Below are positions 1,221-12,665 of a DNA stretch of 36,293 nucleotides, piece after piece (the first letter of the stretch is position 1; each line of letters opens with the position of its first letter). The notes under the pieces are model-generated. The model searched no databases and was not told the origin of the DNA. It worked only from the letters and a program-made list of their open reading frames with translations. The position numbers and the translations under genes are program-made. Origin of the DNA: a virus; IMG/VR virus record IMGVR_UViG_3300036828_000249, positions 1-36,293 of that record. One strand, written 5' to 3'.

Positions 1221-1673
1221 CTATTCTCCCGGTTGCCAGGGGCGGCAGTCAGCGAGGGCCGGATCATCCTCCGGCACGCCGTTGGCCACCGCCATGTCAA
1301 AGTAGGAGTCGAAGAGCGCGGCGCCGGCAGGGCGCACCTTGCGCGGATCAAACTTGCCGAAGCTGGCCGCCAGGCGCCAGCCGATGCCGCGGTCGCCACG
1401 AAGGATAAAGCCGGCGCACGTCGCGGGCTTCGCGGCGCCGGACTGGTGACAGCCGAAGGTGTGGAGCGCTTCGTCGCCGAGCCTGCGTAGCGCGGAGCCG
1501 TCCGCGCCGGTCGTCGCGGATAGCCGGAAGGCCTCCGCGGGGAAGATGCCAACGGCGTCACGCCGCCAGGGGCAATCCGAGCACGGCCGCCGGCGGTAGC
1601 GTCCCTCGGTGCCCTTGACCGTGATTACGGCGTGATCCTCACCGGCCGGGCGCCGGCGCGTGACGCGGCTCAT
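1221..1673 (-). CDS. DUF6283-like cysteine protein
   Basis: A 150-aa protein with PCSDCPWRRD (C31, C34) followed by a conserved-looking FP, then HTFGCH (C75, H76) and C86 in a TCAGF context. The CxxCPWR...CH...CxGF arrangement is what I associate with DUF6283, small proteins of phages and actinobacteria with a probable metal site and no known function. An upstream in-frame start exists at 1754, but ATG 1673 forms a 4-nt overlap with the stop of the HTH gene, so coupled initiation there is more likely. The N-terminal 30 residues are very basic. Confidence 0.6.
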   Translation of the reverse strand: MSRVTRRRPAGEDHAVITVKGTEGRYRRRPCSDCPWRRDAVGIFPAEAFRLSATTGADGSALRRLGDEALHTFGCHQSGAAKPATCAGFILRGDRGIGWRLAASFGKFDPRKVRPAGAALFDSYFDMAVANGVPEDDPALADCRPWQPGE

Positions 1674-1978
1674 ACCGGAGCGCGCCCGACGACCGGCTTG
1701 CGTCCGGGCGTTCCTCGCGGCGGCCGGCCGGTGCCGAACCCTTGCCACTCCCAACCCTCGTCGCGCATCCGCTCAAGGACCTCGGGAAACTCCACTAGCA
1801 GGTTCAGGAACGCGGCGGCCTCGCCGGGGATCGCCGCCGCGCCTTGTGCCCATCGCTCCACGCGCCGGCGGATCGTCACTGGCGCCGCGGTGTCCCCAAG
1901 GTGCGTGAAGAGCCGCGCCAGGGCGCCTTGAGACATTTCCAGGTGCGCCAGCGTCGTGCGGAATTGGTTGTTCGTCAT
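1670..1978 (-). CDS. Small helix-turn-helix (XRE/Cro-like) protein
   Basis: A 102-aa protein. Residues 1-65 read as a Cro/XRE-type helical domain: an FRTTLAHLEMSQGALARL segment typical of helices 1-3, a TIRRRVERWAQG segment that resembles the recognition region of phage HTH proteins, and IPGEAAAFLNLL as the closing helix. The C-terminal 25 residues are Gly/Arg/Pro-rich and probably disordered. ATG 1978 is preceded by GGAGAG. Its promoter region contains the only degenerate copy of the 21-bp operator found elsewhere in the window. It is the only recognisable DNA-binding regulator here and therefore the candidate operator-binding protein; that link is inference. Confidence 0.6.
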   Translation of the reverse strand: MTNNQFRTTLAHLEMSQGALARLFTHLGDTAAPVTIRRRVERWAQGAAAIPGEAAAFLNLLVEFPEVLERMRDEGWEWQGFGTGRPPRGTPGRKPVVGRAPV

Positions 1979-2031: not shown

Positions 2032-2826
2032 CTATACCAATGTTCCGAGGATATGCTCAGCCGCCCATCTGGCGTTCGTGCCCAACTGCCGTTGCCAGGC
2101 GCCTTCGCTTGGCGCCCAACGGAAGCCGGCGCTTTTCAAGGCCGCCCGCGTCGCCGCCTCCGGCTTGCCGGGGAAGAAGAGTTGAAGGCGGTTCTCTTCG
2201 ACGTTTTCCACGATCCGGACGCCGGACGCGTGCACCGTCTCGGACGGTTCCCGCTCCGCCGCTTTGGATAGATGGGCGATGCGCTGTTTAATGCGCCGGA
2301 TGTTCGCGCCGTTGTTCGATAGTTGAAAGTCGGCAAAGCCGATCCGCCCGGCGAAATCCGGCTTGAACAGTTCACGCGCCGCGGCGCGTGAGATACCGAG
2401 CCCGGCGGAGGCTATGGCGTCGGCGCCGGCCTCCGGATCGGCCTTGTGCTTGCGGATGAGCTTGTTCGCGGCGCTCATGCGGGCCTGGCCGGCTTCCAGG
2501 TCCGCCAGCTTCTCGCGGAGCTTCATCACCGCCTCCGGATCGTCCGATGACACGCCGGCGGAGCCGACTGACGCCGCGCGGGCCTCCGCGTCCCCGGCCG
2601 CCTTCAGGAGCCCTATCCCCTTCTCGATGTTGCCGCGGGCGCGGGCTCGATAGTTCCGGTCCCGCCCCTCAGAATGATGGCCGACCAGGATAGGCTGGCC
2701 GAAGGGGATCAACGCCAGCGCATCATCGCCCCTCTTCACGCGGGCGTTGCCGGCCTGGCGGAGCCTGGCAGCCCGCGCCTCAAGCCGAGCGCGCCGGGCC
2801 TCTTGCTTTTCTTCATAGCGGTTCAT
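2032..2826 (-). CDS. DUF3560 domain protein
   Basis: A 264-aa protein. The N-terminus (residues 1-30) is an Arg/Glu-rich helix, followed by FGQPILVGHHSE at 42-53, the hallmark of DUF3560, found on plasmids and phages with no established function. Residues about 95-200 look coiled. The C-terminus ends with FRWAPSEGAWQRQL, another segment usual in this family. The start overlaps the stop of the 105-aa gene upstream by 4 nt (ATGA), so the two are coupled. The domain call is good; the role is unknown. Confidence 0.75.
   Translation of the reverse strand: MNRYEEKQEARRARLEARAARLRQAGNARVKRGDDALALIPFGQPILVGHHSEGRDRNYRARARGNIEKGIGLLKAAGDAEARAASVGSAGVSSDDPEAVMKLREKLADLEAGQARMSAANKLIRKHKADPEAGADAIASAGLGISRAAARELFKPDFAGRIGFADFQLSNNGANIRRIKQRIAHLSKAAEREPSETVHASGVRIVENVEENRLQLFFPGKPEAATRAALKSAGFRWAPSEGAWQRQLGTNARWAAEHILGTLV
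2034..2054 (-). promoter_or_regulatory. Degenerate copy of the 21-bp operator
   Basis: The left half-site ATACCAA and the central TTCCG are kept, but the right half reads AGGATAT instead of TTGGTAT. Read leftward, a TATAGA -10 box is present and the -35 box (TGAGCA) is poor. The near edge is 55 nt from the HTH start codon. The site overlaps the stop codon of the DUF3560 gene. It is probably a weakened or lower-affinity version of the operator. Confidence 0.55.
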
Positions 2827-3140
2827 CGGGCCGCCCTCCGCCCTTCGCTCCGCATGGAGCGCAGCACGAGGCCGGTCACGGTGTTCGCCGGCAGGTGCAA
2901 GCGCTCCCGGTTCAAGTGTTCCGCGACGGCCTGCATGGTCGTCTCGTCGCCGAAGGCAAAGCGCTCCGGCAGGGGATAGTGGCCGGTCACGCCGTCGATC
3001 ACGATGGACAGGGCATAGGCGCCGCGATCCATGGTCGCCGTGTAGGCAAACAGGACCCGGCCGCGGCCGTTCATTTCGAGGACCCGATCCTCAAGAGCGG
3101 CGCAGAGCTCGTCGGACGGGACAGGTAAGGCGGTGTTCAT
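2823..3140 (-). CDS. Hypothetical 105-aa early protein
   Basis: First gene of the leftward operon driven by the promoter at 3188-3216. The ATG at 3140 lies exactly 50 nt beyond the operator and has a GGAG site. The sequence is an alpha/beta mix with a DGVTGHYPLPERFAFGDETTM stretch; there is no cysteine, membrane span or family I know. It overlaps the DUF3560 gene by 4 nt. Confidence 0.6.
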   Translation of the reverse strand: MNTALPVPSDELCAALEDRVLEMNGRGRVLFAYTATMDRGAYALSIVIDGVTGHYPLPERFAFGDETTMQAVAEHLNRERLHLPANTVTGLVLRSMRSEGRRAAR

Positions 3141-3160
3141 TGGAGGCTCCGAAGTTCACA

Positions 3161-3177
3161 CCGGCGCCCATCGCCGG
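3161..3177 (-). repeat. Leader hairpin CCGGCG-N5-CGCCGG
   Basis: Perfect 6-bp arms with a 5-nt loop, 14 nt from the edge of the 3191 operator. By the -10 position it would form about 4 nt from the 5' end of the transcript. The same element occurs at the same distance after four other operators. Confidence 0.75.
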
Positions 3178-3187
3178 CGGCAGGTGC

Positions 3188-3216
3188 ATTATACCAACAT
3201 TCCGTTGGTATTGCAA
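3188..3216 (-). promoter_or_regulatory. Sigma-70 promoter with embedded 21-bp operator
   Basis: Read leftward: -35 TTGCAA (3216-3211), 17-nt spacer, -10 TATAAT (3193-3188). The spacer and flanks form the palindrome ATACCAAC-N5-GTTGGTAT at 3191-3211, so a bound protein would block both boxes. It drives the genes from 3140 leftward. Confidence 0.85.
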
Positions 3217-3218
3217 TG

Positions 3219-3566
3219 TCAGCCTGCCCGCCGCGTCAAATCACCTGGATTGAACACGGACATCCAATAATAGGTCGTGCACATGATCGGCGCCGGCATG
3301 GAGCTCCCGGCGCTGACCATTTCGGCATACTTCGCAGGTCCGGCCGTCCTCGCCCATGCCAGCGCAGCGAGCGCCGCAATGGGATCGGTGGCCGGGACTG
3401 TGAGCGCTGATGCTCGCAGCGCCAGCGCGCCGCACGGGGAGGCGGTTCGCTCAACGGCCATCGGCGCGGCGAACAGGGCCGCGCCAAGCGCCAGGATTGC
3501 CAGGCCGCCCCATGGCGGCGGTCCCGCTCTCTCAAGGGCACTGGCGGCAGGTGATTCGGTTGTCAT
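3219..3566 (-). CDS. Small single-span membrane protein
   Basis: A 115-aa protein with one strong hydrophobic segment at about residues 20-40 (GGLAILALGAALFAAPMAV) and a mostly polar C-terminal domain with two cysteines. It is last in the operon from the 4034 promoter. ATG 3566 has a GGAGG site and a 4-nt overlap with the upstream zinc-ribbon gene, supporting the start. The segment could be a membrane anchor or an uncleaved signal. No family is recognised; lysis, exclusion or envelope roles are all open. Confidence 0.55.
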   Translation of the reverse strand: MTTESPAASALERAGPPPWGGLAILALGAALFAAPMAVERTASPCGALALRASALTVPATDPIAALAALAWARTAGPAKYAEMVSAGSSMPAPIMCTTYYWMSVFNPGDLTRRAG

Positions 3567-3784
3567 AGCTCATCCTCCGAAACGGCCTCGTAGGCGTCCG
3601 GCGGGATTTCAAACGGCGGGAGGCCTTGCTCCGCACGCTTGGCGTTGATGATGCCCATGCAGGACTGACACACCGGCTCCCGCTCCCCGGTGAACGCGCG
3701 CGTTGACGGGACCCGGACCGGATTGAAAGTGAAGAGGCGCCCGCATGTGATGCAGGCGCCGGCGCAAAAGACGAAGCCCATCAC
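3563..3784 (-). CDS. Small zinc-ribbon protein
   Basis: A 73-aa protein with two CxxC-like pairs: C11-x2-C14 (an ACITC context, with a further C7 nearby) and C39-x2-C42 (CQSC), separated by an FTFNP...VPS segment. This is the pattern of short phage and actinobacterial zinc-ribbon proteins of unknown role. GTG 3784 and ATG 3781 are adjacent possible starts behind GGAGG; the ATG has the better spacing. It is coupled to the membrane-protein gene by a 4-nt overlap. Confidence 0.65.
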   Translation of the reverse strand: MMGFVFCAGACITCGRLFTFNPVRVPSTRAFTGEREPVCQSCMGIINAKRAEQGLPPFEIPPDAYEAVSEDEL

Positions 3785-3794
3785 ACGGCCTCCG

Positions 3795-3983
3795 TCAGTA
3801 GATTAGCCGGAGGTCCGCGCGCTCAAATGTTCCTTCGAGCGTCTTGCCTTCCCATTCATACGTCCCCATCACGCGGCGCCTATCACGTGAGGTAATCAGC
3901 AATTCAAACGGCTCGCCATAAGCCGGGATCACTTTAACCGGCTTACCGCTACGGATCGCCTTGTCTGCTTGTTTCGGTGTCAT
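3795..3983 (-). CDS. Hypothetical 62-aa early protein
   Basis: It begins MTPKQADKAIRSGK. The open frame extends further upstream, through the operator, but ATG 3983 sits exactly 50 nt from the operator as in three sister operons, so it is the likely start. The C-terminal half (YEWEGKTLEGTFERADLRL) suggests a small beta-barrel-like fold. Its leader and first codons closely resemble those of the gene at 6314-6529, so the promoter-leader-start block may have been copied as a unit. Confidence 0.6.
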   Translation of the reverse strand: MTPKQADKAIRSGKPVKVIPAYGEPFELLITSRDRRRVMGTYEWEGKTLEGTFERADLRLIY

Positions 3984-4002
3984 CGGGAAGGTCCTCGTGC
4001 CG

Positions 4003-4020
4003 CCGGCGCCAATTCGCCGG
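4003..4020 (-). repeat. Leader hairpin CCGGCG-N6-CGCCGG
   Basis: Perfect 6-bp arms with a 6-nt loop, 14 nt from the operator at 4034. The loop differs in sequence and length from the 3161 copy while the arms are identical. Confidence 0.75.
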
Positions 4021-4030
4021 CAACACGTGT

Positions 4031-4059
4031 ATAATACCAACATTCCGTTGGTATGTCAA
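4031..4059 (-). promoter_or_regulatory. Sigma-70 promoter with embedded 21-bp operator
   Basis: Read leftward: a perfect -35 TTGACA (4059-4054), 17-nt spacer, -10 TATTAT (4036-4031). The operator palindrome spans 4034-4054. It drives the 3795-3983, 3563-3784 and 3219-3566 genes. Confidence 0.88.
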
Positions 4060-4085
4060 TGTCATTCCAGCCGAACCGGGAACGA

Positions 4086-4280
4086 TCAATAGGCGCCGGG
4101 GACTCCTGCCAGCGCATCGAGAAGCCCGTCAATGTCATCGAGCGGGCAGTCATCGCAGCGCGTATGGCGCCATTTGGCGCCCTCCCGGCCGTCGCTGACG
4201 CCGCATTGCTTGGCGCGGCAGGCCCGGCGCGCTTGCGCCAGGACCGCACTCGCCACGGCTCGCACGAGGTATTCGTCCAT
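4086..4280 (-). CDS. Hypothetical 64-aa protein with Cys pairs
   Basis: It begins MDEYLVRAVASAV and contains four cysteines, the last two as a CDDC pair, so metal binding is possible. ATG 4280 is preceded by GGAGG at ideal spacing; an alternative ATG at 4292 overlaps the preceding stop by one base. It is last in the operon from the 5034 promoter. No family is recognised. Confidence 0.55.
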   Translation of the reverse strand: MDEYLVRAVASAVLAQARRACRAKQCGVSDGREGAKWRHTRCDDCPLDDIDGLLDALAGVPGAY

Positions 4281-4291
4281 CACCGCCTCCA

Positions 4292-4609
4292 TCACGCCAG
4301 ATAGGCCATGCCATACGGGCCGCAGCCCGCGAGCGGCTTCTCGCCACGCAGGTTGCCGCGCGCATGCTTCGCCGGCGCCTTCCAACCGGACGACTTCAGC
4401 AGATCGCCGTTCATGCGATCAATGAACCCGTAGGCGGACCGGCTCCCGGCGTCCTCGGTGACGATCCGGCAGTAGCGCGAACCGTCCATGATCGTCACGC
4501 GCGGCGGATCGCCGACGTTGCCGGCCTTCGTGTGATGCTCGCGGAGCATGGCCTCAAGGGCAGTGCGGAACGTCTCGACTTCCGCGGCCGTCACCGGGCC
4601 GGTCATCAC
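4292..4609 (-). CDS. Conserved-looking small phage protein
   Basis: A 105-aa protein whose C-terminal half (GFIDRMNGDLLKSSGWKAPAKHARGNL) resembles a small protein common in phage early regions: a short beta domain whose conserved SWKAPAKHARGN tail has no assigned function. GTG 4609 and ATG 4606 are adjacent starts; the ATG forms a TGATG junction with the upstream gene. The resemblance is from memory of the motif and cannot be tested here. Confidence 0.6.
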   Translation of the reverse strand: MMTGPVTAAEVETFRTALEAMLREHHTKAGNVGDPPRVTIMDGSRYCRIVTEDAGSRSAYGFIDRMNGDLLKSSGWKAPAKHARGNLRGEKPLAGCGPYGMAYLA

Positions 4610-4983
4610 ACCGCCTCCGGCATGGCGAGAAAGCCGAAGCTATCGACCACCTGGCACTGGCCATTGACCTCAAACACGTCGCCGACCATGGAGCTTCGGC
4701 GCCCGTATTGCTGGTCGTCGCGGCCGATGTGGAAGCACGGCGCCACCGGCCGGCAACCCTCGCCGGGCTCCCGCGACCAGGAATTATCATCAATGTTGTT
4801 CGTGAGGAACCATGCGCGCTCCGCGTCCGCCGTCTCGACCTCGGCGACCAGCGTGTAGAAGCCGCGCGTCATCAGGTCCCGCGCCAGCGCCGGCCGGCGG
4901 AGCTCCGCGGCGTCGCCAGGGCAGGTAAGCCGCAGCATGTCGTCACGCGGCGCGTCTTCGTTTAGGTGGAAAACTCTAATCAC
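4606..4983 (-). CDS. Small early protein of a phage LTNxID/GDVF-type family
   Basis: A 125-aa protein starting with GTG 4983 behind a GGAG site, exactly 50 nt from the operator. Residues 60-70 (FLTNNIDDNSW) and 95-108 (RRSSMVGDVFEVNG) match a recurrent pattern in small phage and plasmid proteins of unknown function. It heads the operon that continues to 4292 and 4086. The GTG start is supported by the fixed operator distance. Confidence 0.65.
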   Translation of the reverse strand: MIRVFHLNEDAPRDDMLRLTCPGDAAELRRPALARDLMTRGFYTLVAEVETADAERAWFLTNNIDDNSWSREPGEGCRPVAPCFHIGRDDQQYGRRSSMVGDVFEVNGQCQVVDSFGFLAMPEAV

Positions 4984-5003
4984 TGTCCGCTCCGTCTGTC
5001 CCG

Positions 5004-5020
5004 CCGGCGCCTATCGCCGG
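5004..5020 (-). repeat. Leader hairpin CCGGCG-N5-CGCCGG
   Basis: Perfect 6-bp arms, 5-nt loop, 14 nt from the operator at 5034; the third copy of the leader element. Confidence 0.75.
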
Positions 5021-5030
5021 CAACACGCGC

Positions 5031-5060
5031 ATTATACCAACGGAATGTTGGTATAGTCAA
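5031..5060 (-). promoter_or_regulatory. Sigma-70 promoter with embedded 21-bp operator
   Basis: Read leftward: -35 TTGACT (5060-5055), 18-nt spacer, -10 TATAAT (5036-5031). The operator at 5034-5054 has its 5-bp centre in the opposite orientation from the 3191 and 4034 copies (GGAAT rather than ATTCC on the given strand), showing that only the arms need to be symmetric. Confidence 0.87.
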
Positions 5061-5181
5061 TGTCGGTGCGGAGCCCGGTCCCGCTTCACGCGCGGGCGCG
5101 CGGTGCGCTCAGTGCATGATGGCACCTGGCGCGATCACTGAAGATCAAGGCCGTCAACTCGCTTCCGCAAGGTGCGGATGC
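5061..5181. other. Intergenic stretch, no convincing gene
   Basis: Part of the roughly 420-nt gap between the leftward operon start and the first rightward frame. An open frame crosses it but has no ribosome site and runs through the palindromes that follow, so I do not call it coding. The TCAGTGCATGA around 5109-5119 recurs upstream of the small terminase gene near 12714-12724. Confidence 0.4.
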
Positions 5182-5210
5182 AAGTTATCACTGTGCCGCA
5201 GTGATAACTT
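5182..5210. repeat. Perfect 12-bp inverted repeat (putative operator)
   Basis: AAGTTATCACTG at 5182-5193 and its exact complement CAGTGATAACTT at 5199-5210 surround a 5-nt spacer. It is AT-rich against a GC-rich background and lies in a divergent control region just upstream of a candidate rightward promoter. The size suits a dimeric phage repressor site. It is unrelated in sequence to the ATACCAAC operator. Confidence 0.75.
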
Positions 5211-5216
5211 GGATTT

Positions 5217-5251
5217 CGTATATACGACGGTGCATGACGGTCGTATATACG
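5217..5251. repeat. Paired CGTATATACG palindromes (putative operators)
   Basis: CGTATATACGAC at 5217-5228 and its exact complement GTCGTATATACG at 5240-5251 are separated by 11 nt. Each arm contains the self-complementary decamer CGTATATACG, so this is two symmetric sites 23 bp apart, about two helical turns. That suits two repressor dimers binding cooperatively on the same DNA face. Confidence 0.75.
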
Positions 5252-5261
5252 TTGCTATAAA
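5234..5261 (+). promoter_or_regulatory. Candidate rightward promoter over the CGTATATACG site
   Basis: -35-like ATGACG at 5234-5239, 16-nt spacer, -10 TATAAA at 5256-5261. The second CGTATATACG palindrome lies inside the spacer, so occupancy would block the promoter. The -35 is weak (4 of 6). The transcript would run toward the small frame at 5478 with a leader of about 210 nt. Confidence 0.45.
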
Positions 5262-5477
5262 GACTAACTAACGGGGCACCGGCGCTGGCCGGAGCTCTGC
5301 GCTCCGTGACGGCCGGTGTTAGCGCCGGTTATGCTATTACCTGGCGCCGCAAGATGGCCTCACGGCCGTTCTCAGGGCGTTCTAGGGCATGGTCCGGTTC
5401 GGACGATTTGGGGAAATTCAGGCCGCTCGACGGAGCTAAAAAGGGAGCTCCGGCCTCAGCGAGCCCATGGGGGGCGC

Positions 5478-5675
5478 ATGATAGCTCGGCGGCTGTCCGA
5501 TTGGTTTGCCGATTTAGTGCTGCTCAGTTGGGCCAGGCACTTTCACCGGCTCGGCGACGACAGGACCGCGCAAGTCTACCTGGATCGGATGCAGCGTGAA
5601 GCTACCCTCACCGCGCCGGAGCCTGACGACCGCGACGATGACGGCGCCAGCCGGCTACCCAGAACCAGACCGTGA
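5478..5675 (+). CDS. Possible 65-aa protein
   Basis: Begins MIARRLSDWFADLVLLSWARHF behind a run of G that could act as a ribosome site. The N-terminal 35 residues look like an amphipathic or hydrophobic helix; the C-terminus is acidic then Arg-rich. It is the only plausible rightward gene after the 5234-5261 promoter. Its 3' end overlaps the leftward 5608-5736 gene by 68 nt on the opposite strand, so one of the two may not be real. Confidence 0.35.
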   Translation: MIARRLSDWFADLVLLSWARHFHRLGDDRTAQVYLDRMQREATLTAPEPDDRDDDGASRLPRTRP

Positions 5676-5736
5676 AGGGCACCGTCACAACCAGACCGAC
5701 CAATGGGAAGACTTGCCAGTAGGTTTGCGGGCTCAT
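5608..5736 (-). CDS. Very small single-span membrane protein
   Basis: A 42-aa frame starting at ATG 5736 behind GGAGG: MSPQTYWQVFPLVGLVV, a membrane span to about residue 30, then a strongly basic tail (GWRRHRRGRQ). A short span followed by a positive cytoplasmic tail implies N-out/C-in. It is coupled to the upstream membrane-protein gene by a TGATG junction. Role unknown. Confidence 0.5.
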   Translation of the reverse strand: MSPQTYWQVFPLVGLVVTVPFTVWFWVAGWRRHRRGRQAPAR

Positions 5737-5945
5737 CACAGCCTCCACCATAAATAGCCTTGCGCCGCCGCGATAAGGTTGGCGCCGAATATCAGCCACG
5801 CAGCCGCATGCAGTGTGTCGGTGATCGTGCCGCTGACGGCCGGCGTGATCGCGCCGGCTAAAATGAACCCGACGCCGACGTTGTTCAAGGCGGTGGCGAG
5901 TAGCTTGACTTGCTCCACATGGGAGCTCGCGGAGGACCCGCTCAT
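5736..5945 (-). CDS. Small two-span membrane protein
   Basis: A 69-aa protein with two hydrophobic segments, about 21-40 (NNVGVGFILAGAITPAV) and 47-66 (AAAWLIFGANLIAAAQGYLW), joined by a short turn. This resembles the small hairpin membrane proteins common in phages (holin-like or exclusion-like), but it has no diagnostic motif and lies among early genes, away from any endolysin. GGAG lies 9 nt before the ATG at 5945. Confidence 0.55.
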   Translation of the reverse strand: MSGSSASSHVEQVKLLATALNNVGVGFILAGAITPAVSGTITDTLHAAAWLIFGANLIAAAQGYLWWRL

Positions 5946-6011
5946 GGTGCCGCTCCGGCGGCTGTGAGCGCTGAAAGGGCGGCTCGCGCCGCCCGCCAGG
6001 TCGTCACCATA

Positions 6012-6308
6012 TCAGTCATTCCAGACGGTGACGCGGATGCAGCCAAACGGCTGGTCGTAATGGGCGCCCGTGTCATCCAGGCGGATCAGGGTCAGCGCCT
6101 GGCCGTTGCCGAGGTCCGTCTCGACGCGCGCCGGCCAGTGTCCCGGCGGCCAGCCGAGCGTGGAGGCCTCCACGCTGAAGGTGTGGAGCTCCGTCTCGGT
6201 CACTTGCTTTGCGGTAATGCCCATCATCAGCGATCCGGATTCCCGGATCAGTCTACGGACCGTCGCTTCGACGGCGTGTTGAAGGTCCGCGGCTTCCTCT
6301 CGCGTCAT
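6012..6308 (-). CDS. Hypothetical 98-aa protein
   Basis: Begins MTREEAADLQHAVEATVRRLI, a helix, then a beta-rich C-terminal part (LIRLDDTGAHYDQPFGCIRVTVW). ATG 6308 has GGAG at proper spacing; the in-frame GTG at 6317 would abut its own ribosome site, so the ATG is preferred. It is the second gene of the operon from the 6580 operator. No family is recognised. Confidence 0.55.
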   Translation of the reverse strand: MTREEAADLQHAVEATVRRLIRESGSLMMGITAKQVTETELHTFSVEASTLGWPPGHWPARVETDLGNGQALTLIRLDDTGAHYDQPFGCIRVTVWND

Positions 6309-6313
6309 TGTCC

Positions 6314-6529
6314 TCACTCCACTACGCGGTAAAGATGGCCGTGCTTCGTCAGCTTGCCCGCGCTCACCATGGCGCTCATCAGGCTTTCAAACTGGCTCAG
6401 ACTGATTCCGTAAGCCATCAGGGCGGCATACAGCACGCCACCGGGAGCGCCCATCGCGCCAGCGGCCTTCACGGCGTCAACGATGGCGTCGGCGATCATG
6501 CGGACAGCGGCGATCTGTGCAGGTGTCAT
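6314..6529 (-). CDS. Small winged-helix-like early protein
   Basis: A 71-aa protein, MTPAQIAAVRMIADAIVDAVK, then GAPGGVLYAALMAYGISLSQFESLMSAMVSAGKLTKHGHLYRV. The helix-turn-helix-strand pattern ending in GKLxxxGxLYxV is what a small winged-helix fold looks like, and I associate it with a family frequent in phage early regions. The start at 6529 is 50 nt from the operator; the longer frame upstream of it is rejected for that reason. It could bind DNA, but that is not shown. Confidence 0.6.
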   Translation of the reverse strand: MTPAQIAAVRMIADAIVDAVKAAGAMGAPGGVLYAALMAYGISLSQFESLMSAMVSAGKLTKHGHLYRVVE

Positions 6530-6549
6530 CGGAAGGGTCCTCAAAGCGG

Positions 6550-6566
6550 CCGGCGCCAATCGCCGG
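6550..6566 (-). repeat. Leader hairpin CCGGCG-N5-CGCCGG
   Basis: Perfect 6-bp arms, 5-nt loop, 14 nt from the operator at 6580; the fourth copy of the leader element. Confidence 0.75.
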
Positions 6567-6576
6567 CGGCAGTCCC

Positions 6577-6606
6577 CTTATACCAACATTCCGTTGGTAT
6601 ATGCAA
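6577..6606 (-). promoter_or_regulatory. Sigma-70 promoter with embedded 21-bp operator (leftward)
   Basis: Read leftward: -35 TTGCAT (6606-6601), 18-nt spacer, -10 TATAAG (6582-6577). The operator is at 6580-6600. It diverges from the rightward promoter 50 nt away, so one repressor would control both directions. Confidence 0.85.
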
Positions 6607-6654
6607 CATCAATCGTCATGCGCTAATGGAGGGTCCAGCGTGCACTGATTGCGC

Positions 6655-6683
6655 GTGACATACCAACGGAATATTGGTATGGT
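6655..6683 (+). promoter_or_regulatory. Sigma-70-like promoter with embedded operator (rightward)
   Basis: -35 GTGACA (6655-6660), 17-nt spacer, -10 TATGGT (6678-6683). The operator at 6660-6680 has one arm mismatch (ATTGGTAT in place of GTTGGTAT). This is the only intact copy facing right, and it drives the operon that ends in the methyltransferase / PP-loop / ParB genes. Both promoter boxes are weaker than in the leftward copies. Confidence 0.75.
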
Positions 6684-6718
6684 CTTGTCATGAGGGGCGC
6701 ACAGCGCGCCTCTCCCCT

Positions 6719-6762
6719 CCGGCGCGGGGCACCGCCGGACCGATCCCGGCCATGAGCCGGGA
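6719..6762 (+). repeat. Two consecutive leader hairpins
   Basis: CCGGCG (6719-6724) pairs with CGCCGG (6733-6738) across 8 nt, the same arms as the leftward leaders. TCCCGGC (6744-6750) then pairs with GCCGGGA (6756-6762) across CATGA. The second hairpin hides an ATG that has no ribosome site, which argues for the ATG at 6785 as the first start. Confidence 0.6.
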
Positions 6763-6784
6763 CGGTGAGCACCTAGAGGCTGAC

Positions 6785-6982
6785 ATGACCATGGCCACCG
6801 AAAAGACCCAGATCATTGAGACCCTTTTCCGCGAGGTTGAGCTGGCCGGCACGGTCTTCACGGTGCACTGGACCGGCAGGACGACGCGCCGGCAGATTTA
6901 CCGGATCAACGGCCGCCAGGTGACGATAAGGACCTGGCGGGCGCGGTATTTCGAGGCCTCCGCCGCGGCGGAGACGGTGTGA
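6785..6982 (+). CDS. Hypothetical 65-aa protein
   Basis: First gene of the rightward operon. ATG 6785 has AGAGG at correct spacing; upstream in-frame starts lack one. The sequence is basic and beta-rich (FTVHWTGRTTRRQIYRINGRQVTIRTW). It joins the next gene through a TGATG overlap. No family is recognised. Confidence 0.55.
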   Translation: MTMATEKTQIIETLFREVELAGTVFTVHWTGRTTRRQIYRINGRQVTIRTWRARYFEASAAAETV

Positions 6983-7197
6983 TGGCCGCCCGCAAGCCGA
7001 TTGACCGCACTTTCCTTTCCGGTCCCGTCAACGGGACCATCTACATCGCCGAATACGAGCGCCGGAACAGCCGCGTGCTCCGCTGGTCGGCGATGCCGGC
7101 CGAGCGTGCCGAGCTTGACGTGCCGATTGACGCGCGCCGCGTTCCTTTGCAGGTCCGCCGCGCCGCGGCCGAGTTCATGGCACGGGAGCCCGTGTGA
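6982..7197 (+). CDS. Hypothetical 71-aa protein
   Basis: ATG 6982 overlaps the preceding stop (TGATG); a GTG directly before it is an alternative. The chain is basic, with no cysteine or membrane span. It is followed by another TGATG junction, so the first three genes of this operon are likely translated in series. Confidence 0.5.
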   Translation: MAARKPIDRTFLSGPVNGTIYIAEYERRNSRVLRWSAMPAERAELDVPIDARRVPLQVRRAAAEFMAREPV

Positions 7198-7580
7198 TGG
7201 CCGCCCGGCGTCAGTGGATCGACGTTTGCGCCATCTGCGGCAAGCGCGCCGATACCAACGTCCCGCCGATCCCGCCCTCCGTTGAGTGGGTCGGCGTCTG
7301 CATGGCCTGCAACAAGGCCTCCGGCATCAGCGAGACGTATTCCGCCTGGCGTGACGCGAAGATCGCCGCTGACAAGGCGGCGGAGCGCGCGGCCGGCGCC
7401 GCCTTCTGGAAGGCCCGCGGGATCGAGGTCGGCGACCGCGTCCGCGTCTTTGGGAGCCACATGCTGTTCGGCCGCTTCGCCATCCATGGCGTCGCCAAGG
7501 TCGGCCGCGGCGGCGCCTACGTGGCCGCGAAGGGCCATCCCCGGCTTTCGCCGGCGGGCGCGGAGCGCGTGGCGGAGTAG
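7197..7580 (+). CDS. Zinc-ribbon protein, 127 aa
   Basis: Two CxxC pairs, CAIC (about residues 11-14) and CMAC (about 35-38), make a compact zinc ribbon. A helical Ala/Lys/Glu segment follows, then a beta-rich C-terminus with VGDRVRVFGSHMLFGRFAIHGVAKVGRGG, which reads like a small KOW/SH3-type barrel. The combination suggests nucleic-acid or protein binding, but I know no family. The start overlaps the previous stop. Confidence 0.6.
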   Translation: MAARRQWIDVCAICGKRADTNVPPIPPSVEWVGVCMACNKASGISETYSAWRDAKIAADKAAERAAGAAFWKARGIEVGDRVRVFGSHMLFGRFAIHGVAKVGRGGAYVAAKGHPRLSPAGAERVAE

Positions 7581-7585
7581 CCGCG

Positions 7586-7858
7586 ATGAGCGGGCTCTCC
7601 TACGTCACGTGCTGCATCAACAGCACGGCCGGCGCCATCCAAGACATGATCGACCTAGAGCGGCAGGTCACATACCGCACGGCGCTGAAGCGGATCGGCC
7701 GCGCGGAGCTCGCCAGGACGTTCCCGGATTATGACTGGCATCGCCGCGGCGGGCTCACCATGAAGCGCGATTGGCATGTCGGCTACTACAGGTCCCGTTA
7801 TCTCGGCCGACCCTGCTACTTCGTTCGGTGGTCAGCGATCGAGTTCATTTTCGCCTGA
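7586..7858 (+). CDS. Hypothetical 90-aa protein
   Basis: Begins MSGLSYVTCCINSTAGAIQDMID; aromatic-rich toward the C-terminus (YDWHRRGG, WHVGYYRSRYLGRPCYFVRW). Three cysteines but no paired metal motif. It sits 5 nt after the zinc-ribbon gene in the rightward operon. No family is recognised. Confidence 0.5.
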   Translation: MSGLSYVTCCINSTAGAIQDMIDLERQVTYRTALKRIGRAELARTFPDYDWHRRGGLTMKRDWHVGYYRSRYLGRPCYFVRWSAIEFIFA

Positions 7859-7900
7859 AACTCGCGCGCCTCGCGGCGGCGGAGCGGAGGACCTGACGCC

Positions 7901-8623
7901 TTGAACGATGCAGCATTGAACATCCGCCCGGTCACGCTCAACCGCATCAAGCGCTATCCCGCCGGCGTGGCCAGCGGCTTTGATGACCTCTCGGCCGACT
8001 ATGACGACACGTTCGGCTCGCGCCGTTGCCAGGCCGAGGACCGGCTGCTCGCCGTCCGGCTCCGCCGGTTCCTCGCCGGGCGTGACGGCCCGCTCTTAGA
8101 CGTGGGATGTGGCACCGGCGCATTGCTCCGGCTCATCTCGCTTCCGATGGCGGATTACACCGGCCTTGACGTGTCCGCCGGCATGATCGGCGCGGCCATC
8201 TTGAAGTATCCGCGCGCTGAGTTCGTGCATGCCTCGGTGGAGGCCATGCCGTTTCCGGTTGAGCGGTTTGACACGGTCGTGTCGATCTTCTCCGCGCTCT
8301 CCTACACGGCGGAGCCGGCGCTCGCGATGCAGGAGATACGCCGCGTCCTGCGGCCTGGCGGCAGGTGCTTCCTGATGGTCAATGCGCCTCGTTGGTATCG
8401 TCGCAACGCCGCTTGCGCCGGCGAGCTCCACGTCCATCTGGCGCCGGCCGCGTGGAACACGTGGCAGGCGGCCCGACGTTGCCACCTGGCGGGCCTCACC
8501 GAGATCCGGCTATCCGCCTTCTCGATCCTGCCGACGCCGCTCATGGGCCTTGAGGGGCCGCTCAGCGGCATGTTCCCGCAAGCCGGGCGCTACCTCATCA
8601 TTGAGGCCGCGCGGCCGGCATGA
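7901..8623 (+). CDS. Class I SAM-dependent methyltransferase
   Basis: A 240-aa protein with the class I Rossmann signature: motif I LLDVGCGTG at 65-73, an acidic residue in YTGLDVSAGMI for the ribose hydroxyls, and VVSIFSALSYT as the post-II strand, followed by EIRRVLRPGGRCFLMVNAP. This belongs with the methyltransferase-11/25 group, whose members methylate small molecules or modified bases. There is no target-recognition domain of a restriction-type DNA methylase. The start is TTG 7901 behind GGAG and GAGG; no in-frame ATG precedes the SAM motif. Its stop overlaps the next start by 4 nt, so it is coupled to the PP-loop gene. Confidence 0.85.
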   Translation: MNDAALNIRPVTLNRIKRYPAGVASGFDDLSADYDDTFGSRRCQAEDRLLAVRLRRFLAGRDGPLLDVGCGTGALLRLISLPMADYTGLDVSAGMIGAAILKYPRAEFVHASVEAMPFPVERFDTVVSIFSALSYTAEPALAMQEIRRVLRPGGRCFLMVNAPRWYRRNAACAGELHVHLAPAAWNTWQAARRCHLAGLTEIRLSAFSILPTPLMGLEGPLSGMFPQAGRYLIIEAARPA

Positions 8624-9780
8624 GCAAGAGCCGTTTGCGGACCGGGCTCGACGTATTCGAGCAAGGCTTGCAGCGGTTGACGGAGCTCTACGCCGGCGGT
8701 CACACGGTCGTCGTCGCGTTCTCCGCGGGGAAGGATAGCGGCGTCTGTCTTGAGCTCGCCATCATGGCGGCGCGAGCGACCGGCCGCCTCCCGGTGCATG
8801 TGTCCATGCGCGACGAAGAGGTGATGCTACCGGGGACGTTTGAATACGCGGAGCGCGTCGCGGTAAGGCCCGAGGTTGATTTTCGATGGTGCGTCGCCAA
8901 TCAGCCCATCGTCAACGTGTTCAACCGCCGCGCGCCGTATTGGTGGGTCTTTGATCCGGAGCTCCGGCCCGAGCAATGGGTCCGCCAGCCGCCCGAGTGC
9001 GCGGTCCGGATCGACGCGCTCGACATCTCGCGGATTATCACGCGGCAGACCTATCCGACCGCGGAGGGGAAGGATATTTTTGCCGTCATCGGCATCCGCG
9101 CCAGCGAAAGCCAGAACCGGCGCTATTCGGTGTTCGCCGCCGGCGGCCACCTGACGAAGCCGAACGCCATGGGCACGCGGAATTGCCGGCCGATCTACGA
9201 TTGGCAGGACGCGGACGTATGGCGCGCGGTCCGTGACAATCAGTGGGATTACAATTCGGCCTATAATACAATGATCCGGTTCAACATCCCGTTGTCAAAA
9301 ATGCGGATCGCTCCGCCGACACTCAACAGCGCCTCCGTCTATCTGCTTGAGATGGCGCGGAAGGCCTGGCCGCGGTGGTTTGACAAGGTGGAGGACCGGC
9401 TCCCCGGCGTGAAGACGGTGAGCCAGTTCGGTGCGCGGGCCGTCATGCCGCACCGGCGGAGCGGGGAGACGTGGCAGGACTGTTTCATGCGCGAGTGCAT
9501 CACGGAAGCGCCGGCGCCGTGGATCAAAGAGCGCGCCTCCAACATCATGCGCGCGATCCTCGGCTACCATGAGCATCATTCGACGGCGCCACTCCCGGAC
9601 ATGAAGCCTTGCTATATGTGCGTCGGCAATATGGGCGCCTGGCGGTCCCTCGCGATGGCGCTTTACAACGGGGACCCGTTCGCGCTGAAAACCCTTGGCA
9701 TCGGCGGCACGAAGGCGGTTGATCCGGAGTTCTTTCGGACCGGCGCCGGCAGCTGGGGCGGCGCGCCGACCTGGTCGTGA
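8620..9780 (+). CDS. PAPS-reductase-like PP-loop ATPase (IbrA/DndC-type superfamily)
   Basis: A 386-aa protein. VVVAFSAGKDS at 30-40 is the PP-loop that binds ATP pyrophosphate in PAPS reductases, ATP sulfurylases and DndC. GIRASESQNR at 158-167 and RNCRPIYDWQDADVW near 187-201 are further family signatures. Cysteines at 127, 189, 331 and 334 (CYMC) could hold an Fe-S cluster, as in DndC. Phage homologues usually sit beside a ParB-domain gene, as E. coli IbrA sits beside IbrB, and that is the case here. The chemistry is probably adenylation or sulfur/nucleotide transfer; real PAPS reduction is unlikely in a phage. It overlaps both neighbours by 4 nt. Confidence 0.85.
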   Translation: MSKSRLRTGLDVFEQGLQRLTELYAGGHTVVVAFSAGKDSGVCLELAIMAARATGRLPVHVSMRDEEVMLPGTFEYAERVAVRPEVDFRWCVANQPIVNVFNRRAPYWWVFDPELRPEQWVRQPPECAVRIDALDISRIITRQTYPTAEGKDIFAVIGIRASESQNRRYSVFAAGGHLTKPNAMGTRNCRPIYDWQDADVWRAVRDNQWDYNSAYNTMIRFNIPLSKMRIAPPTLNSASVYLLEMARKAWPRWFDKVEDRLPGVKTVSQFGARAVMPHRRSGETWQDCFMRECITEAPAPWIKERASNIMRAILGYHEHHSTAPLPDMKPCYMCVGNMGAWRSLAMALYNGDPFALKTLGIGGTKAVDPEFFRTGAGSWGGAPTWS

Positions 9781-11258
9781 ACATCGACATTCGGATTATG
9801 GGCTGTCACGTCCGCGATCACTTCATTGCGGACATGCTCAAGCAACTGCGGCTCCCGCAGAGCATTGTCACGTATGATGAGCGTCCCGTCCGTGGCCACG
9901 CGATGCATACCGCGCGAAAGTGCTGGCTGACACCGCTCCCGGAGGGCGCGACGCACCGCCTGGTTCTGCAAGATGATTTGGAGCTCTGTGACGACTTTAT
10001 CGGCATCGTGCACCGGGCCTCCGCTTACTTCCCGCGTGCAATGTTCAGCCTCTACAATCCGCGCCTCCGGTTTGAGCACCGCAAGTCGGCGTCGCCATAC
10101 GTCCTGACGCCAGGCGGCACGGCATGGGGTCAGGCGATCTTGATGCCGGGGGACCAGATTGAACCGTGCTTTGACTGGATCACGCGGACGCTCCCGGCGG
10201 ATTACAAGCACGATGATTGCGCGATCAGTGAATATGCCTGCGTGCATGGCGTCCAAATCATGACCACAGTGCCAAGCACGGTGCAGCATCTAGCCCCGAC
10301 CGCGAGCCTGCTCGGGTTCAATAACTTGCGGAAGGTGTCGAAGGTCTGGACGGGGCGCGACCTCTCCGGTGAGGACTGGCGGAACACCGACTACTGGCGA
10401 GCGGCCCATGTCAGGAACAACCTATATCTTCCGAAAGGCTACTCCATGCCGAAGCGTCCCGCGCCAATCAAGACGAACGTGGCACTGGAAACCCTGGCCA
10501 TAGATTACGTCCCGGTGGATAGCATCAAGGCGAACGCATACAACCCGAACCGCATGTCCGAAAAGGACTTTGAGCTCTTACTCCGCTCCATGCGGGAGGA
10601 CGGCTTCACGCAGCCGGTCATTGCCCAACGCGAGACACGGATCATCGTTGACGGGGAGCATCGCTGGCGCGCCGCGGCGCATCTCGGCATGGCGACGCTC
10701 CCGGTCGTGTTCGTCTCCATGACGGAAGAGCAAGCGCGGATCGCCACGCTCCGGCACAATCGCGCGCGCGGTTCCGAGGACCTGCAACTCTCGGCCGAGG
10801 TATTGCGGGACCTGGAAAAGCTAGGCGCTCTCGATTGGGCCGCGGACAGTCTGATGCTCTCGGACGCAGAGATTGAGAAGCTACTCGCGGACGTGCCGGC
10901 TCCGGACGCACTGGCAGGTGACGCCTATTCAACGGCGTGGGAACCCGGCGCCAGGCCGGAGGACGGCCAGATAACGGAGCGCGCCACGGACACCGAGGGC
11001 TCCGGCATTGTCATCACGTCCGCGGCCAGCGTGAACGCTTTGGAGGCGGAGCGGCGGCGGGAGGAACGGATCGCAGCGGCCCGGACCGAGGAAGAGCGCG
11101 AGCTCGCGCGGAAGGACGGCACGAGCTACCGGATCAACCTGATGTTCGCCGACGATGAGGCGAAGGTCGTCAAGGCGGTGCTCGGTGACAAGCCGGCGGA
11201 GCGCCTGTTGTCTATCTGCCGGGATTACGCGAGGACGGCGGAGGTTCAAACCGCCTGA
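9777..11258 (+). CDS. Glycosyltransferase-like domain fused to ParB/DGEHR domain
   Basis: A 493-aa protein with a GTG start overlapping the PP-loop stop. Residues 1-210 look like a GT-A or GT25-type glycosyltransferase: an N-terminal Rossmann-like strand, then THRLVLQDDLELCDDF with an acidic pair at D66/D67 where a DxD metal site is expected, and a later KHDDCAISEYA. Residues 242-340 are a ParB N-terminal-type domain: VPVDSIKANAYNPN, MREDGFTQPVIAQ, and the core VDGEHRWRAAAHLG at 291-304. Residues 400-490 are a charged helical tail. ParB-type domains partner PP-loop enzymes in IbrAB and, more distantly, in Dnd (DndB DGQHR). The glycosyltransferase assignment rests on motif shape and is less certain than the ParB call. 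Confidence 0.75.
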   Translation: MNIDIRIMGCHVRDHFIADMLKQLRLPQSIVTYDERPVRGHAMHTARKCWLTPLPEGATHRLVLQDDLELCDDFIGIVHRASAYFPRAMFSLYNPRLRFEHRKSASPYVLTPGGTAWGQAILMPGDQIEPCFDWITRTLPADYKHDDCAISEYACVHGVQIMTTVPSTVQHLAPTASLLGFNNLRKVSKVWTGRDLSGEDWRNTDYWRAAHVRNNLYLPKGYSMPKRPAPIKTNVALETLAIDYVPVDSIKANAYNPNRMSEKDFELLLRSMREDGFTQPVIAQRETRIIVDGEHRWRAAAHLGMATLPVVFVSMTEEQARIATLRHNRARGSEDLQLSAEVLRDLEKLGALDWAADSLMLSDAEIEKLLADVPAPDALAGDAYSTAWEPGARPEDGQITERATDTEGSGIVITSAASVNALEAERRREERIAAARTEEERELARKDGTSYRINLMFADDEAKVVKAVLGDKPAERLLSICRDYARTAEVQTA

Positions 11259-11536
11259 CCGCGGAGCTTCTGGTCCCGGTTCATAATGTTGGAAATGGCC
11301 CAATACTTATAGCCGTCGCCTAGCTCAATGTATCTGTAGTTCACCTTGCCGAACCGTTGCACATAGCCGTAATGTTTGATCGCGTTGAGCAGCCTGGCGA
11401 AGACTTCATTGTTCTCCGCGGATCGCACGATATACCAATGCGGTATCTCCGGCATGCTCTTGGCGAAACGCCACGGGAGGCCTGCGACAGCCTCCCGCAA
11501 TTCCGAGATCAGTGTGTCTAGGTCGTCAACTGCCAA
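11246..11536 (-). CDS. Small conserved-type phage protein, 96 aa
   Basis: The start is TTG 11536 with a textbook GGAGG 6 nt before it; it overlaps the upstream gene by 11 nt. The core MPEIPHWYIVRSAENNEVFARLLNAIKHYGYVQRF, then YRYIELGDGYKYWAI, is a pattern I recognise from small phage proteins that process or bind something unknown. Its 3' end overlaps the convergent ParB-fusion gene by 13 nt. The TTG start is unusual but better supported than the longer TTG-initiated frame to 11590. Confidence 0.6.
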   Translation of the reverse strand: MAVDDLDTLISELREAVAGLPWRFAKSMPEIPHWYIVRSAENNEVFARLLNAIKHYGYVQRFGKVNYRYIELGDGYKYWAISNIMNRDQKLRGQAV

Positions 11537-12587
11537 TGATGGCCTCCAATCCCGCGGCCGTGAGGCAGGTCTCAAGTGTCCTGCCTTCAACCCGGATGTC
11601 TATGAGGCCGCGGTGGCGAACCACTCTGGTCAATCCCGGCATCCGGCCTTTGGGTAGATTATGTGGCGAATCGCTGTCATGCACTGCGCCATACTTTACC
11701 CATTGTCCTACGCGCGCCTCAACCGGCTTGCCGGCGAAAACCTTCGCGTCACGGAGCGCCTTGAGGAACAGGATATGGTCAGGCGATAGGGCGCCCGTCG
11801 CCGGCGTAGGGGCCTTCCGCGGCGCCGCCGCCTTGCTGACCGGCTCCGCGGCAGGTGCGGGCTCCACGGCCGGGACCGTCACCGCCTTGGCGTATGGCCA
11901 CGTCTCCGTGCGGACTAGGACCTTCTCCGCGGGCTCCGCCGCCTTCGCCTTGCGCGCCTTGCGGAGCTCCGCCACGGCGGCCGACGCCACCTTGCGCGCC
12001 GCCTTCTCGGGATCGCCCTCGACGGTCCGGACCGGACCATGCAGCGACCGGAGCTCAACCGTCTCGCCGTTGATCGCGTTGATGGCCGTGGGAACATGGG
12101 CCTGCGACTTCTTCAGCGTCTCCCGGCCGGGCTTTGGGCCAAGCCGCGGGGACCGTCCGGCGGAACGGAGGCCCGGCTTCTCGACCGATGCGGAGATATT
12201 CCGCCCGGCGCACGCATGGCAGAGGGAAGAGCCGGCCTGCATGTTCTCGGCGGTGAGGGGCGCTTCGCAGTTCGCGCACACCGGCGCCGGCGCATAGGTC
12301 AACAGCTTGGGCGCCTCGGCCACGGGCTCCGCCGCGTCGTCTTGCTCCGGCCACGCATGCGTGCTCTCGGCCTGTGCTAGATCATAGGCCGCCGCGTCCG
12401 TGTCGGCCGGGACCGGCAGGCCGGCGCGCGCCAGGGCAACCGGCGCTGCGACGCCCATGCGGTCAAGCTCCGCGGTGGTCAGCGCCAGGGCGCGGGCGTG
12501 CGATTCAAATTTCTTGACCGGCTTCTCGCGGTCCGTCACGGCGTTGAACACTTTGACCAATTGTGCCGCGGAAAGTTTCTCAAGCAT
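11526..12587 (-). CDS. 353-aa early protein with internal zinc ribbon
   Basis: Residues 1-45 (LSAAQLVKVFNAVTDREKPVKKFESHARA) form a helical domain like those at the start of several plasmid and phage DNA-binding proteins. Residues 104-127 hold CANC...CHAC, a zinc ribbon. A long Ala/Lys/Pro linker (about 130-260) follows, and the C-terminal 90 residues (LSPDHILFLKALRDAKVFAGKPVEARVGQWVKYGA) are folded and might be winged-helix. It heads the leftward unit from the 12640 operator, 52 nt away. A nucleic-acid role is plausible; no family is secure. Confidence 0.6.
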   Translation of the reverse strand: MLEKLSAAQLVKVFNAVTDREKPVKKFESHARALALTTAELDRMGVAAPVALARAGLPVPADTDAAAYDLAQAESTHAWPEQDDAAEPVAEAPKLLTYAPAPVCANCEAPLTAENMQAGSSLCHACAGRNISASVEKPGLRSAGRSPRLGPKPGRETLKKSQAHVPTAINAINGETVELRSLHGPVRTVEGDPEKAARKVASAAVAELRKARKAKAAEPAEKVLVRTETWPYAKAVTVPAVEPAPAAEPVSKAAAPRKAPTPATGALSPDHILFLKALRDAKVFAGKPVEARVGQWVKYGAVHDSDSPHNLPKGRMPGLTRVVRHRGLIDIRVEGRTLETCLTAAGLEAIIGS

Positions 12588-12609
12588 CGGGGTAACTCCG
12601 GTTCGCTAA

Positions 12610-12626
12610 CCGGCGCCAATCGCCGG
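12610..12626 (-). repeat. Leader hairpin CCGGCG-N5-CGCCGG
   Basis: Perfect 6-bp arms with a CCAAT loop, 14 nt from the operator at 12640; the fifth copy, identical to the 6550 element through the loop. Confidence 0.75.
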
Positions 12627-12636
12627 TGTCATTCCC

Positions 12637-12665
12637 TTTATACCAACATTCCGTTGGTATATCAA
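12637..12665 (-). promoter_or_regulatory. Sigma-70 promoter with embedded 21-bp operator
   Basis: Read leftward: -35 TTGATA (12665-12660), 17-nt spacer, -10 TATAAA (12642-12637). The operator is at 12640-12660. It marks the boundary between the early block and the late structural genes. Confidence 0.85.

Follow-up and report, generated by a model that had tools for sequence, protein, structure and literature searches.

Does a short palindrome that recurs in front of the operons on the left of a viral genome mark a single regulon, and which protein would bind it? The question was raised by a first-pass annotation of the DNA studied here, a whole IMG/VR viral record of 36,293 bases (hereafter the window), in which a dispersed 21-bp operator was described as the basis of a one-repressor, many-promoter regulon. 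We compared the window with three relatives, IMGVR_UViG_3300025934_000539 (G1, 14.3 kb), IMG/VR 3300050821_007235 (G2, 20.7 kb), and IMG/VR 3300021478_000029 (G3, 63.6 kb), and these four phages together contain 19 operator copies, 16 of which are leftward. By an exact scan of viral contigs, G1, G2, and G3 were the sole contigs with several operator copies, and a terminase search returned the same three as the nearest relatives (82-90% identity). A further relative, G21 (56.6 kb), was called circular because a PAPS-reductase gene spans its contig ends. No cultured relatives were found among phage records by megablast with 12001-36000 of the window, tblastn with the helix-turn-helix (HTH) protein described below, or blastn with one cassette, and terminase identity in the cultured-relative search was at most about 41%. 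More distant terminase relatives showed no convincing operator copies, no other convincing repeated palindromes, and no early genes in common. The contigs of the window, G3, and G2 end (at 1, 1, and 20729, respectively) 1.3-1.7 kb past the HTH gene, and these similar ends may reflect either a physical end of the genome or a break in the assembly.

Copies and sequence of the operator

Both strands of the window were scanned for ATACCAAC-N5-GTTGGTAT, and matches with up to 3 mismatches were counted against shuffled sequence. The pattern occurs five times exactly and once with a single mismatch, at the six positions reported in the first-pass annotation (Table 1), while the chance expectation in the window, estimated from shuffles with up to 3 mismatches, was 0.01 matches. 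The copy that had been described as decayed was also recovered; everything else in the window has at least 5 arm mismatches. The sites span 9.5 kb, and the structural genes, rightward of 12.7 kb, contain zero copies, as had been claimed. When the motif scan was extended to related phages, as had been proposed, G1, G2, and G3 gave 4, 4, and 5 copies, respectively, all in promoters, with the five G3 copies at 2.3-10.9 kb.

The arms are invariant across the four phages except for arm position 8, where every single mismatch falls, leaving ATACCAA-N7-TTGGTAT as the strict core. It had been stated that only the arms matter. The arms are indeed near-invariant, but the centre is not wholly free, as its central base is A/T in 9/9 distinct centres of the four phages. 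The centres are 76% AT, compared with 42% for the flanks. Fixed arms around a variable centre with an A/T middle would be expected of a dimer that contacts the arms and bends the DNA between them. Separately, a variant palindrome, ATACCAAG-N7-CTTGGTAT, occurs at 1858-1880 of G3 and 18825-18847 of G2 within a small gene that precedes the HTH gene, and may be a coding coincidence because the two genes that contain it are very similar.

Table 1. Operators, leader hairpins, and genes of the window
Feature	Position	Strand	Remarks
Decayed operator	2034..2054	-	4/16 arm mismatches; precedes HTH gene; a different hairpin follows
Operator/promoter	3191..3211	-	Leftmost operon, including HTH gene; -35 TTGCAA 3211-3216, -10 TATAAT 3188-3193
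Operator/promoter	4034..4054	-	-35 TTGACA 4054-4059, -10 TATTAT 4031-4036
Operator/promoter	5034..5054	-	-35 TTGACT 5055-5060, spacer 18, -10 TATAAT 5031-5036
Operator/promoter	6580..6600	-	-35 TTGCAT 6601-6606, spacer 18, -10 TATAAG 6577-6582
Operator, rightward promoter	6660..6680	+	One mismatch; -35 GTGACA 6655-6660, -10 TATGGT 6678-6683; divergent from 6580
Operator/promoter	12640..12660	-	-35 TTGATA 12660-12665, -10 TATAAA 12637-12642
Leader hairpin	3160..3178	-	GCCGGCG-ATGGG-CGCCGGT
Leader hairpin	4002..4021	-	GCCGGCG-AATTGG-CGCCGGC
Leader hairpin	5003..5021	-	GCCGGCG-ATAGG-CGCCGGC
Leader hairpin	6549..6567	-	GCCGGCG-ATTGG-CGCCGGC
Leader hairpin	12609..12627	-	ACCGGCG-ATTGG-CGCCGGT
Small XRE-type HTH protein	1670..1978	-	102 aa; candidate repressor; homologues in G2, G3
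First gene of 3191 operon	2823..3140	-	105 aa; conserved in G2, G3
Operon of 4034 promoter	3219..3983	-	Three small genes
Operon of 5034 promoter	4086..4983	-	Includes DUF7717 protein
Operon of 6580 promoter	5736..6529	-	First gene 6314-6529, predicted winged helix, pLDDT 88
Operon of 6660 promoter	6784..11258	+	Methyltransferase, PAPS-reductase-like, ParB-domain protein
Operon of 12640 promoter	11246..12587	-	Two genes conserved in G1-G3

Position of the operator in promoters

As the first-pass annotation had noted, -35 and -10 boxes spaced 17-18 nt apart flank every operator copy, and across the four phages 19/19 copies fill the spacer of a predicted sigma70-like promoter. The operator covers the spacer and reaches into an extended -10 (TGGTAT), whose TAT it includes. 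Because the palindrome is symmetrical, the opposite strand provides a built-in control for promoter similarity. Over the 19 copies, the mean number of -35 matches was 4.4 in the gene-facing direction versus 2.4 on the opposite strand, the corresponding means for the last three bases of the -10 box were 1.8 and 0.3, and the gene-facing direction scored higher for all 19. None of 100,000 sign flips equalled the observed asymmetry, giving a p-value that is optimistic because the operator copies are related by duplication. The operator-to-start-codon distances given for the five leftward copies of the window (50, 50, 50, 50, and 52 nt) were also correct, and in leftward copies of the four phages the start codon lies 48-53 nt from the operator.

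A copied cassette with a leader hairpin

The operator is real as described, but the repeat unit is larger than 21 bp, since it takes in a conserved leader hairpin. In all four phages the leftward copies (16/16) have a near-identical hairpin 11-13 nt downstream of the operator. The stem, GCCGGCG/YGCCGGC, hardly varies and the loop has 4-6 nt; the hairpin is predicted to begin a few bases past the expected transcription start. Judged from the sequence, the repeat is a promoter-operator-leader cassette that has been copied. The hairpin was never found away from a start codon. Moreover, in G2 and G3 it precedes the HTH gene with no operator, and likewise one other gene in G3, and would therefore have a role of its own. 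At 6660 and in the corresponding rightward promoters of G2 and G3, the operator is kept and the common-type hairpin is lacking. The leader of this rightward promoter, GTGTTTCCT-GTAAGA-AGGAGACAC (15880-15915 in G2 and 5504-5535 in G3), is predicted to pair with its own ribosome-binding site.

The hairpin probably acts as RNA, and its variable loop length is easier to reconcile with RNA than with a rigid DNA site. Covariation did not demonstrate such a role, because the outer, lower stem showed no significant covariation (one test, p=0.09) and the apical stem is almost invariant. No Rfam family matched in the window.

Extent of the proposed regulon

The operons that follow the operators consist of small genes whose function is mostly unknown, together with the longer rightward operon (Table 1). 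The claim that the operator controls nearly all early operons, a label given from gene position, fits the window. It is too strong for the group: G3 has about 30 kb more genes without a site, and its 33-63 kb region, which includes replication-type genes and a CI/Cro-like pair, contains zero operator copies. The regulon would thus comprise the operons left of the structural genes, and not necessarily all early operons. Within these limits, a regulon is well supported by sequence because the four phages share conserved arms, the copies are all in promoters with none in structural genes, and no multi-copy host site was found. Some single protein probably binds all of the sites. As for the one-repressor, many-promoter regulon that had been proposed, the sequence supports one protein acting at many promoters well, and the position of the sites suggests that the control would be repression.

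Two further features of this region were observed. The PAPS-reductase-like and ParB-domain genes adjoin at 8620-11258 of the window, resemble the IbrA/IbrB pair, and occur in all relatives including G21; in the window, the ParB protein is extended at its N-terminal end by about 220 residues. A long non-coding stretch at 5182-5255 of the window carries an AT-rich inverted repeat, AAGTTATCACTG-TGCCG-CAGTGATAACTT, and two CGTATATACG palindromes. Related sequence occurs elsewhere in G3 (42050-42102), and the repeat is a possible origin or another control site.

The small HTH protein as candidate binder

The first-pass annotation named the HTH protein encoded at 1670-1978 for a gel shift and called the repressor unidentified. 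By co-occurrence this protein is the best candidate binder. Its homologues in IMG/VR are confined to the window, G2, and G3, all of which bear operators, and the G1 contig stops short of the expected place of the gene. In G21 a methyltransferase, a PAPS reductase, a ParB protein, and a winged-helix protein (54% identity) are present, and the operator, the hairpin, and the HTH gene are all absent. This co-occurrence is drawn from three genomes with both features and one with neither, and the HTH gene travels with other early genes. The gene lies downstream of an operator and in the same direction in the window (3191), G2 (17664), and G3 (2358), as in Aca-type systems, in which a small HTH gene belongs to an operon whose promoter has an inverted repeat. 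No intact operator is found directly upstream of it. While the whole HTH proteins of the window, G2, and G3 are about 70% identical, they do not differ in the stretch TIRRRVERWAQG, which is likely to be the recognition-helix stretch. A profile search gave the antitoxin/autorepressor HigA2 as the nearest solved relative, with a weak match (E=0.0098), and one PHROG regulator matched (E=0.0068); no Pfam HTH family did. The structure model was of low confidence (pLDDT 51), and a fold search from it was dropped for that reason. On balance we hold, with slightly less than even confidence, that the small HTH protein binds the operators.

A feedback scheme can be drawn from these positions. A dimeric DNA-binding protein would occupy the spacer and extended -10 and thereby exclude RNA polymerase. 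The promoters would fire upon phage entry, and the HTH protein, a later product of the leftmost operator-controlled operon, would accumulate and shut the left and right operons as well as its own, an Aca-like negative feedback. The leader hairpin, at the extreme 5' end of the transcript, would probably serve in mRNA protection or translational control. We regard this whole explanation, an HTH feedback repressor over the cassette operons, as evenly balanced. The HTH protein is favoured in this role because it follows the operator among genomes, the winged-helix protein does not, and the CI/Cro control region of G3 has no site.

The same protein could conceivably bind both the DNA operator and the leader hairpin of each mRNA, its own included, and so exert control at two levels. 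Aca2 reportedly combines DNA and RNA control in this manner, and the HTH mRNA in G2 and G3 is predicted to carry the hairpin only. We nevertheless find two-level control quite doubtful, because the operator and hairpin sequences differ.

Other candidate binders and readings

The strongest alternative, which we consider unlikely, is that a CI-type lysogeny repressor encoded outside the window binds the operators, so that the dispersed sites form an immunity regulon like those of phiC31 and P1. CI-type repressors usually bind their own control region. G3 does encode a CI/Cro-like divergent HTH pair, at 52338-53036 (-) and 53018-53371 (+), with HTH_31/HTH_3 and PHROG transcriptional repressor matches, but its intergenic region contains no operator palindrome. 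Furthermore, no integrase was seen among the G3 genes inspected, and relatives of the CI-like protein in viral contigs were limited to G3, although the contigs of the window, G1, and G2 may miss that region. Dispersed operators are themselves typical of CI-type repressors, as seen in our phiC31 scan and in P1 (PMC8546580).

It is very unlikely that the palindrome has no binder and merely reflects the duplication of promoter cassettes. The whole cassette from -35 to start codon is alike between copies, and duplication or conversion has clearly spread it. However, the arms have stayed constant while the centre, the -35 box, the last half of the -10 box, and the flanks have diverged, between phages too, and the rightward promoter keeps the arms despite its different leader. 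The left arm is conserved too, although it is not known to serve RNA polymerase.

Still less probable as the binder is the winged-helix protein whose gene (6314-6529) comes first to the left of the divergent pair. This gene adjoins divergent operators in the window and G2 and an operator in G1. G3 lacks it and has five operators, and circular G21 has it and no operator; on this co-occurrence the protein was rejected as the binder. A fold search also matched it to no known regulator at a significant score (best E 0.07).

That a host regulator binds, letting the phage sense its host through the operator, is only remotely probable: the 56 stretches found in 84,980 species genomes have a single copy each. 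A multi-copy host regulon was rejected on the same scan, which gave single copies only. In several bacteria the same arms do appear, one copy at a time, at promoters of genes resembling DUF4102-type (P4-like) integrases, but these sites have extra TACCAACA half-sites, look like integrase sites, and are possibly integrase arm or autoregulatory sites.

Comparison with known regulatory systems

Lambda-type operators cluster between the divergent CI and Cro genes. The sites described here were contrasted with these from the outset, and they are indeed dispersed, over 9.5 kb and with none near the CI/Cro-like pair of G3, so that a lambda-type operator cluster was rejected; but dispersal is not unprecedented, being found in phiC31, P1, and SIRV2. 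The feedback scheme most resembles the Aca repressors, whose inverted repeat is always within the core promoter and which share with it a small phage HTH protein, a promoter inverted repeat, and negative feedback (PMC9410906, PMC8434428). Aca systems often have a second inverted repeat near the promoter, as the leader hairpin is here. However, their IR2 resembles IR1, whereas our hairpin is unlike the operator, and they are described per operon, whereas one site serves six promoters here. In addition, no acr gene was identified here. In the archaeal virus SIRV2, one regulatory sequence precedes 11/13 small early genes, and their shut-down is proposed to be the work of Aca8, a small HTH protein (PMC11065993). 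The likeness lies in one conserved site shared by the small early genes of a viral genome and in a small HTH shut-down protein; the SIRV2 promoters are of the TATA/BRE type, and a leader hairpin goes unmentioned in the sections of that report cited here.

Among phages with dispersed sites, phiC31 served as a positive control, and the same palindrome scan found 15 copies of its inverted repeat. Many near-perfect palindromes are thus dispersed in both genomes, but those of phiC31 are unrelated in sequence and lie also among structural genes, whereas ours occur only in the non-structural arm, in each case filling a promoter spacer. In P1, one C1 repressor acts at 22 dispersed operators (PMC8546580), which are 17-bp and asymmetric, in contrast to the 8-5-8 palindrome found here. 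L5-type stoperators, 20-30 dispersed sites for one repressor (PMC6550527), are 13-14 bp, asymmetric, and mostly outside promoters, where they block elongation; since our site is palindromic and always in promoters, identity with stoperators was rejected. Finally, the SAS/ESAS repeats of cluster K, which have inverted repeats and lie upstream of many non-structural start codons (PMC3203893), are likewise restricted to the non-structural arm, but SAS, 13 bp long, lies at the ribosome site, in contrast to the present repeat, which unites a sigma70-type promoter with an operator and a leader hairpin.

Implications

Dispersed regulation itself has precedents, and what is new here is that operator, promoter, and leader hairpin are joined in one copied cassette. 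The cassette would be a compact, copied switch for the small uncharacterised non-structural operons of one phage group. If two-level control were true, it would represent a network-wide version of Aca2-type DNA-plus-RNA control, and the operator-less hairpin before the HTH gene makes such control directly testable. If shared control marks anti-defence genes, as has been argued for archaeal viruses, the cassette would offer a handle with which to search for them in these uncultured phages.
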